Under the pieces are notes generated by a model, which was not told where the DNA came from, made no database searches, and was given only the letters and a program-made list of their open reading frames with translations. Below, piece by piece: positions 17,746 through 20,183 of a DNA stretch of 64,000 nucleotides (the stretch's first letter is position 1; each line of letters starts with the position of its first letter). Source of the DNA: Actinomycetota bacterium (GTDB lineage Bacteria; Actinomycetota; Geothermincolia; Geothermincolales; RBG-13-55-18); the NCBI GenBank assembly GCA_030019255.1, contig JASEFK010000004.1, positions 89,569 through 153,568 of the forward strand, read 5' to 3'. The translations under genes and the position numbers were made by a program.

Positions 17746-18133
17746 CTTGCCGACCTCCTCTCTCGCTTCGCCGATCCTCGGATGGCGGGGGTCCCCGACC
17801 GGAAGGCCCTCGCGACATTCGCCGTCGTGAACCGGACACCGTTTCAGTGGGTGCCCTCCCGCCGTTCACCGCCGCGGGGCGGGCCCGGCGAGAAACCCTC
17901 CCACAAGCGCACCCGCGAGGGTTGACGGACGAGGAAGACCTCCGCCGGCTCGCCACGTGCCCGGTATGCGCCGGCACGGGGCGCGGTCGTCCCTTGCTCC
18001 TCCTGTCCCCGCCGCGGCGGTATAGGTGTAATGATAGCAGAATGGGACCGGCGTAAGATGTTACTGACAAAAAGTCGTATTTGCCATTATATGGAATCTC
18101 GCTCTCGGGGACCGGAAATTACCCCCCACCCTA
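17746..18133. other. Intergenic region between divergent dapA and the flavoprotein leader
   Basis: No gene is seen in these 388 bases. AT-rich words near 18020-18110, such as TATAGGTGTAATGATAGCAG, could hold the dapA promoter on the minus strand. The promoter for the flavoprotein follows at 18134. Confidence 0.35.
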
Positions 18134-18161
18134 TTGACAGCCGGAAAAGCGATGATAATAT
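18134..18161 (+). promoter_or_regulatory. Promoter of the structured leader / flavoprotein gene
   Basis: TTGACA at 18134-18139, a 16-bp spacer and TAATAT at 18156-18161. The predicted start of transcription (about 18167) coincides with the first base of the first long stem of the leader. Confidence 0.75.
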
Positions 18162-18165
18162 GAAA

Positions 18166-18344
18166 GCGTTCCGGCTGAGCTCGGGAAAAAACCGAATCCA
18201 AGCGCTTGTATTATTGCGCACCCGGAACGTAGGTAGGAACCCAGGATGCCGAGTAGAAAACGTCGCGGCTTCGCGCCCGACGGTCCCAAAGGTATCTTGG
18301 GTTTCTACTATTTTTAAAACCCTGCGCTTCCCGCGGAGCGCAGG
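18166..18344 (+). ncRNA. Candidate structured leader RNA (two tandem branched domains)
   Basis: Domain 1: CGTTCCGG (18167-18174) pairs exactly with CCGGAACG (18222-18229) and encloses TCGG/CCGA (18181-18195) and GCGC/GCGC (18202-18219). Domain 2: AGTAGAAA (18252-18259) pairs exactly with TTTCTACT (18302-18309) and encloses CGTCG/CGACG (about 18261-18282) and CCCAA/TTGGG (18285-18301); ATTTTT follows, so domain 2 could act as a terminator. A third hairpin, CCTGCGCT/AGCGCAGG at 18321-18344, stands just before the ribosome site. This layout fits a riboswitch or attenuator for the gene at 18368. I could not match a known class. Confidence 0.55.
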
Positions 18345-18367: not shown

Positions 18368-19771
18368 ATGTCCGACGGGTTGGCGGGCAAGAAGGTGGTG
18401 GTCATCGGGACAGGCATAGGCGGCTCGGGGGTTTCCGCCCTGCTGGCCAGGGAGGGGGCCCAGGTGCTGGTCCTGGAGAGGAACTCCTTTCCGGGAGGAA
18501 AAGCGGCCAGCTTTGAGCGCGAGGGGTTCACTTACGACACTGGAGTTCATTGGCTCTCGCGGGGCGACAAGGGCCCTCTGGGGGAGATAGCCGACCTGGT
18601 GGGGGCGGAGGTAAGCTACCGGTCACTAGAGCCGGCCATGCAGTTCACCGCGGGGGGGCGGACGGCCACCCTTTACCAGGACATGGACGACCAGGAGGTA
18701 CTGGAGCGACTCTTCGAGGAGATCGGAGTGCTCTCCGAGAACCGACCCGGAGCCCGGGCGCTCTTCGAGGACCTGGCGAGGGAACGCTCCCCGCGTGAGC
18801 TCGAGGAACTGGACGAGGTTTCCTTCTCCGATTACTGCGCGCGGTTCGTGGACGACGAGCAGTTGAACCGCTTGCTGGACGGCTTCACCGGCATGTACAT
18901 GTGCATCTCCCGGAGGGCCGCCTCGGCGGCGGAGTTCATACTGTGCTTTTCCAGCCAGGTGAAGGAGAAGAACCTATGTTATCCCGTGGGAGGGATGCGC
19001 GCCGTTCCCGTGGCCTACCTGAAGGCCCTGGAGTCCATGGGCGGGGAGGTGCGATACTCCACCCCCGTGGAACGCATCGTGGTGGAGTCGGGTAAGGTGC
19101 GGGGCGTGGAGGCTGGAGGGTTCATACCCGCCGACCTGGTTATCAGCAACACCGGAATAAAGGAGACGGTGGCCCTGGCCGGGAGGCACAACTTTCCCGA
19201 CGACTACCTGGCCCGGGTGGACTCCCTGCGCCTTTCTTTCGGGGCGGTGAGCGTGAAGTATGCCCTTGATGCCCCGGTGGTGAAGCCCCACCTGTTCTGC
19301 TATTTCCCCGACTTCCGGGATCCCGGGCTTGCGGAGAGGCAGGCGGCGGTGTTCGTCCCCGTGCCCTCCGCCGCCGACCCCTCCCTGGCGCCTCCCGGCT
19401 GCCAGCTGGTCCTGGCCGGGTCCCTGGCCCCTCCCGGCCTGGAGGACAGGAAGCGGGCGGCGGAGATATGCGAGGAGATCCTGGACCGCATCGAGAACAC
19501 CATGCGGGACCTCTTCCCGGGCATCGAGGACCATATCGTCTGGAAGATAAGGACGGACACCCGCTACATCGCGGAGATATCCGGGAGATGGACGGGAGAG
19601 GTCATCGGGCTGGCCCAGAACCGGCACCAGGTGGGGAAGAACCGTCCCTCCCAGATAACGCCGGTGGAAGGGCTCTACCTGGTGGGGGCGGACGCCGGGG
19701 GCCGCGGGGTGGGCACGGAGATGGCCGCGGACAGCGCCCTAAACCTGTGGAGGTTGCTGCTCCATTCCTGA
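18368..19771 (+). CDS. FAD-dependent phytoene desaturase-like oxidoreductase
   Basis: A 467-residue flavoprotein of the CrtI/phytoene dehydrogenase superfamily. The FAD-binding dinucleotide fold is at the N-terminus (VVVIGTGIGGSGVSALLARE, then VLERNSFPGGKAASFEREGF). A C-terminal FAD contact is LYLVGADAGGRGVGTEMAAD. The family includes carotenoid desaturases, retinol saturases and many uncharacterised members, and no carotenoid synthase (crtB) lies nearby, so the substrate is open. ATG at 18368 follows GGGAGG. The gene stands alone on its strand and sits behind an unusually structured 200-nt leader, implying regulation by a ligand or by translation. Confidence 0.85.
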   Translation: MSDGLAGKKVVVIGTGIGGSGVSALLAREGAQVLVLERNSFPGGKAASFEREGFTYDTGVHWLSRGDKGPLGEIADLVGAEVSYRSLEPAMQFTAGGRTATLYQDMDDQEVLERLFEEIGVLSENRPGARALFEDLARERSPRELEELDEVSFSDYCARFVDDEQLNRLLDGFTGMYMCISRRAASAAEFILCFSSQVKEKNLCYPVGGMRAVPVAYLKALESMGGEVRYSTPVERIVVESGKVRGVEAGGFIPADLVISNTGIKETVALAGRHNFPDDYLARVDSLRLSFGAVSVKYALDAPVVKPHLFCYFPDFRDPGLAERQAAVFVPVPSAADPSLAPPGCQLVLAGSLAPPGLEDRKRAAEICEEILDRIENTMRDLFPGIEDHIVWKIRTDTRYIAEISGRWTGEVIGLAQNRHQVGKNRPSQITPVEGLYLVGADAGGRGVGTEMAADSALNLWRLLLHS

Positions 19772-19958: not shown

Positions 19959-20183
19959 CTCCTTCACCTCCAGGGGCATGATAGCTGGGAGGGGTGACAA
20001 AGCGCGAAGAGGCCGCCGGGAAGATGTCCGGCTCAGGGAGAAAGGCTGAAGCTTCAAAGGGGAGGATGGTAGGAACACGGAGGCAAGCGGCAGCGGGGTG
20101 GTGCATTTCATAGCCGGACAATATGCGCCAGGCGGAGGAGTTAGAACGAACGTGGAGGCAAGCGCCGGCGAGGTTGTGCGTCC

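Follow-up and report, generated by a model that had tools for sequence, protein, structure and literature searches.

The DNA in front of a CrtI-like flavoprotein gene of an actinobacterium was found to carry a structured RNA that almost certainly belongs to a real conserved family. Judged by sequence comparison, its core is a previously uncatalogued RNA family with predicted members in many Actinomycetota lineages. The overall explanation that we favoured, at somewhat better than even chances, was a stand-alone, terminated small RNA gene whose internal loop binds a protein. The RNA was located in a window of 64,000 nucleotides (the whole stretch of DNA that was analysed) on contig C4 of the genome G000, the nearest named relatives of which were the Candidatus Solincola and Geothermincola genomes. 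In the proposed model, a sigma-A-type promoter (18134-18161) would drive an RNA gene of about 150 nt that comprises a family-specific 5' domain, the core at 18234-18307 and a U-rich end (Table 1).

Table 1. Features of the RNA gene and its neighbour (positions in the window)
Feature	Positions	Strand	Remarks
Promoter	18113..18161	+	Block AAATTACCCCCCACCCTA, TTGACA -35 at 18134-18139, 16-bp spacer, extended -10 TGATAATAT at 18153-18161
5' domain	18166..18230	+	Stem GCGUUCCGG/CCGGAACGU enclosing two small hairpins; family-specific
Core hairpin (P1, internal loop, P2)	18234..18307	+	Comparative fold, strong covariation
P1, 5' strand	18234..18250	+	Partner 18291-18307
Internal loop, 5' side	18251..18260	+	GAGUAGAAAA, near-constant
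P2 with variable loop	18261..18282	+	CGUCG/CGACG; 97.6% paired, compensatory changes; length and loop vary
Internal loop, 3' side	18283..18290	+	GUCCCAAA, near-constant
P1, 3' strand	18291..18307	+	GGUAUCUUGGGUUUCUA, partner 18234-18250
U-rich tail after P1	18308..18316	+	Probable intrinsic terminator (function predicted)
CrtI-like FAD oxidoreductase gene	18368..19771	+	Pfam/NCBIfam; neighbour, outside the RNA

The sequence-only reading of the window had proposed a promoter of the form TTGACA-16-TAATAT, with transcription starting from the first stem of a leader. This promoter was borne out: its -10 hexamer was read in the window at 18156-18161 together with an extended TG, and the same promoter was kept in relatives, with identical spacing in those that had the flavoprotein gene and those that did not. 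Among the genomes without a flavoprotein orthologue, both the -35 and the -10 elements were read in G004, G005, G007 and G011, and the -10 side only in G015. The position of the promoter predicted a start at about 18167-18169, which agreed with the earlier proposal; both this start and the end of the transcript are positions that we infer. The AUUUUU run noted earlier after the 3' strand of a second domain (18302-18309) was also confirmed, and a T-rich tail was usual in the order and in low-GC relatives, while the tail was varied or weak in some members and in high-GC relatives. The block directly 5' of the -35 element (18113-18133) was kept in most relatives whether or not the flavoprotein gene was present, and it is a possible activator or UP-type site.

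The 155-nt transcript (18162-18316) folded at -70.5 kcal/mol versus -45.8 +/- 4.0 for shuffled sequences (z = -6.1, with none of 200 shuffles as good), and the whole interval of the earlier reading (18134-18344) folded at z = -6.6. The minimum-energy fold consisted of the 5' domain and a single long hairpin, in which P1 formed a stem of 17-19 bp with the internal loop and the terminal hairpin above it. The leader had previously been drawn as two tandem closed domains with 8-bp outer stems. The first of these stems was present (CGUUCCGG/CCGGAACG, 18167-18174 with 18222-18229). The second (AGUAGAAA/UUUCUACU, 18252-18259 with 18302-18309) retained its pairing potential, but the preferred and conserved fold of this region was the 18234-18307 hairpin, and the second closed domain did not stand. 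Covariation in the two outer stems had been named as a sign that would support this drawing. Covariation was found in the leader as such; however, it lay in the long stem and the terminal stem of the hairpin, and within the order neither outer stem had any compensatory change. The 5'-domain stem was near-invariant across 13 members of one family, with zero compensatory change, and conservation of the domain did not extend to G005 or families f2-f3. The alternative outer stem was rejected, having no compensatory change in the order and forming 3.6 of its 8 pairs outside it, while the long stem was 94% paired there. Accordingly, two mutually exclusive conserved folds, as a riboswitch with an expression platform would have, were not found, because the alternative stem was not conserved. 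A third hairpin by the ribosome site of the flavoprotein gene did exist as a perfect hairpin at 18322-18344, but it was lost beyond the closest relatives, and similar pairing occurred in only some members of the genus. A small reading frame through the core (18247-18318, MPSRKRRGFAPDGPKGILGFYYF, ATG at 18247, 23 codons) was also rejected as its frame was not kept in relatives. The core was taken to be non-coding because the length of the hairpin differed by single bases between close relatives, which broke the only frame through the hairpin.

Within the order, an alignment made by MAFFT and not fitted to any structure was 98.1% paired and contained 9 compensatory pairs versus 2.0 +/- 1.2 expected; seven of them were in P1, where 98.3% of cells were paired, and two in the terminal stem P2. 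Over the phylum, compensatory change was seen in 15 of the 17 pairs of P1. In 67 homologues from outside the order, aligned by fitting to the structure of the model, 94% of the cells of both stems were paired, with 316 double-change cells versus 83 +/- 10 (0 of 500 shuffles reached this), and pairing dropped to 30-50% when the partners were slid. Since the phylum alignment was fitted to the model, the unfitted alignment within the order matters as well. The internal loop was almost constant: its 5' side read GAGUAGANAA in 47 and its 3' side GCNCCAAA in 46 of the 67 outside homologues, and within the order a single letter of the 5' side differed in one of 17 genomes. A constant loop between freely changing stems is the expected signature of a specific binding site.

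Of 18 genomes of the order searched with blastn, 17 had the RNA at the dapA locus, and the exception was only 62% complete. With a covariance model built on the core (R1), the RNA was recovered in all 17, and a single weak match first appeared in f4, a sister family; blastn then showed this match to be conserved in every one of the nine f4 genomes as well as in family f7. Run on 57.9 kb, R1 matched all ten f4/f7 RNAs and nothing else. Moreover, a reciprocal model built from these ten RNAs alone, with none from the order (R3), recovered every one of the order's 17 RNAs with 29-55 bits, and its next match had 12 bits. The RNA was also found in the class of the order. In a sample of 396 Actinomycetota genomes, R3 matched 37 and R1 matched 67. 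These belonged to 15 families or more, and some carried two or three copies. R1 matches of the lowest scores (26-30 bits), most of them from family f11, were mutually consistent and individually less secure, and matches of R1 on the antisense strand were mirror images of the palindromic stem.

The sequence-only reading had interpreted the RNA as a ligand-sensing riboswitch leader controlling the CrtI-like FAD oxidoreductase. It is true that promoter, leader and gene are collinear and that where a genome of the order carried the flavoprotein orthologue, the RNA mostly lay directly upstream of it. However, the RNA and its promoter remained in place in five genomes without the orthologue (G004, G005, G007, G011 and G015), of which G004, G007 and G011 were 92-99% and G015 was 91% complete. 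In all five the RNA adjoined a dapA-like gene, and the next gene in G004, G007 and G011 was a convergent response-regulator/GGDEF gene ending 60, 115 and 33 nt away, respectively (Pfam). In G017 the orthologue was on another contig, and the RNA faced a convergent BacA gene. Furthermore, the spacer between the RNA and the flavoprotein gene had no conserved sequence and ranged in length from 59 to about 150 nt, and homologues in other lineages preceded other genes. Thus, INDEPENDENCE of the RNA from the flavoprotein gene was shown. Flavoprotein control was not why the RNA was kept, because a leader cannot serve an absent gene. We consider it very probable that the RNA does not serve as a dedicated leader of the flavoprotein gene, which is probably a mere neighbour, and we regard the riboswitch for this gene as a very improbable explanation. 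Two further observations concerned the surroundings of the gene. In G012 (L043:1342-1369, L076) the 3' half of the hairpin was partly duplicated between the RNA and the flavoprotein gene, and downstream of that gene in the window (20080-20165) GGAGGCAAGCG occurred as two near-copies about 70 bases apart.

A broader alternative was that the family is a cis-regulatory element, a riboswitch or attenuator of its downstream genes generally, whose loop binds a ligand and whose P1 and U-run terminate transcription, with orphaned copies left after gene loss or rearrangement. Aptamers too show a fixed internal loop between covarying stems, a U-run or pyrimidine tail follows P1, and the next gene was often co-directional and close. 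In nearly all f4 members, only a few bases separated the end of the U-rich tail from the ribosome site of the NuoH-like gene that followed (about 10-20 nt away). Family f7 shared the upstream genes of f4 and had an adenine-deaminase-like gene next (named from its sequence, with no profile). A DUF4193 gene, often followed by Lnt, came next in f14, f49, f8, f51 and f61, and elsewhere the next gene encoded Bpa (at 23-57 nt), a thioesterase, ProC or Lnt. The gene calls in unannotated contigs were our own, with Pfam support for the tested examples only. The NuoH-like placement in f4, together with those before Bpa, DUF4193, thioesterase and ProC genes, looks like that of a leader. Against this alternative, the downstream genes, which also included LigD-like and CrtI-like ones, shared no common pathway; at least nine loci had convergent neighbours, conserved and 29-66 nt away in L225, L228, L233, L234, L235 and L243; and the switch-type alternative fold of the window was not conserved outside the order. 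The family resembled terminator riboswitch leaders in its covarying stems round a fixed internal loop, its U-rich tail and the f4 copy at the ribosome site of a gene, and it differed from them in its lack of a common downstream pathway, its convergent neighbours and its survival after loss of the flavoprotein gene. Because no pathway unites the downstream genes, a stand-alone RNA was favoured and a general cis-element appeared rather unlikely. The leader-like positions may reflect read-through neighbours, or a cis role in some lineages.

The RNA had its own promoter and was conserved without a fixed downstream gene, as is typical of a stand-alone small RNA, and we consider it fairly likely that it is stand-alone and acts in trans. 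In the favoured explanation, P1 and P2 would vary while paired, holding the 10/8-nt loop in exact form, and this loop would most likely be the docking site of a conserved protein. If the loop is such a docking site, the RNA would act in trans within a small ribonucleoprotein. That a protein is the partner of the internal loop seemed to us an even chance, and a small ligand could explain the fixed loop equally well. Stand-alone, promoter-driven, terminated RNAs of about this size frequently act by base-pairing regulation, so that the RNA might also silence or activate mRNAs through its unpaired bases. However, the fixed bases occupied both strands of an internal loop within a rigid rod simultaneously, and the terminal loop, which is the usual position of a seed, was variable; this mode of action was therefore judged improbable. 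It is rare for an RNA with a fixed internal loop to occur in many lineages of one phylum, and such RNAs are usually part of basic machinery.

Comparison with known RNAs gave no identity. In Rfam 15 there was no match at the gathering cut-offs, so that a tRNA-like or other Rfam family was rejected, and at the most permissive settings nothing appeared with E <= 0.1-0.5, the single chance match having E = 7.5. A search of open-licence literature for the family or the letters of its loop found no bacterial RNA paper. The RNA resembled 6S RNA (RF00013) in outline, both being promoter-driven, lineage-wide RNAs that stand alone and form a rod whose two stems flank an internal loop. However, 6S RNA has a large bubble like an open promoter, whereas the core here was 85 nt with a sequence-fixed 10/8 loop, and the genome had its own canonical 6S RNA elsewhere (G000:C1:155950-156128). 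The bacterial small SRP RNA (RF00169) is likewise a short hairpin (about 100 nt) in which internal loops are conserved, but its conserved GGAA tetraloop was missing from the core, and the SRP match of the genome also lay elsewhere (G000:C4:52642-52741). Ms1, another actinobacterial stand-alone structured small RNA, was discovered through conserved gene order and is flanked by a HAD hydrolase gene, lying in intergenic regions of more than 300 nt (PMC9130861). In contrast, the RNA described here had no HAD hydrolase neighbour, the neighbours in the order being dapA and a GGDEF or CrtI-like gene. For this genome the separate matches refuted a diverged 6S or SRP RNA, and a diverged form of any such known RNA (6S, Ms1, 6C or SRP) was judged extremely improbable.

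Every one of the 17 genomes of the order with the first RNA also had a second RNA, of about 130 nt (in G000 at C2:250516-250644, L133:1498-1626). It was a rod of short helices with repeated internal loops of the GGAA/GGAA type and covaried separately, with 40 double-change cells versus 10 +/- 2.4. The ends of this rod had CCAAAGGUUACUUGGG in common with a single member of the first family, L053, and the model of each RNA gave weak matches to the other RNA; by these likenesses the longer RNA appears to be a related paralogue of the first. A match of model R2 in G024 (L154, E = 2e-4, the E-values of the models being rough) aligned poorly and was taken as chance. The longer RNA lay between a UppS-like gene and an apparent MgtE-like gene. 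About 45-10 bases before it in L133, a palindrome of the AATACC...GGTATT kind between the -35 and -10 elements of the longer RNA's promoter was kept in relatives and is a possible repressor site. A CsrA-titrating reading, prompted by a CAGGAUG motif in P1 and GGA repeats in the longer paralogue, was noted but not adopted, the GGA being within stems. Second copies of the first RNA in f14 and f49 (for example L220, L221, L223 and L225) had in common a long terminal hairpin carrying GUAUGGGGAAGG and, upstream, a block similar to GUCGCUUGGGGCCACC, and some of them were 23-57 nt before the gene for Bpa, a proteasome activator. A viral contig from IMG/VR held another copy (L265:9208-9298, 47.5 bits), close to a reading frame for a DnaB-like helicase; there was no match in the named phage collection.

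These results corrected the annotation of the locus: the flavoprotein gene is probably not controlled by a riboswitch, and it would be misguided to screen isoprenoids or FAD as its ligands. They also provided a family new to Rfam, with a covariance model, 94 placed homologues and an 85-nt core, which makes its partner directly testable. More tentatively, at less than even chances, we suggest that this is an ancient, phylum-wide and overlooked RNA, which would serve, by way of one fixed loop, as the RNA component of a conserved ribonucleoprotein; it would have a lengthened GGAA/GGAA paralogue, and at least one viral contig carries a copy.
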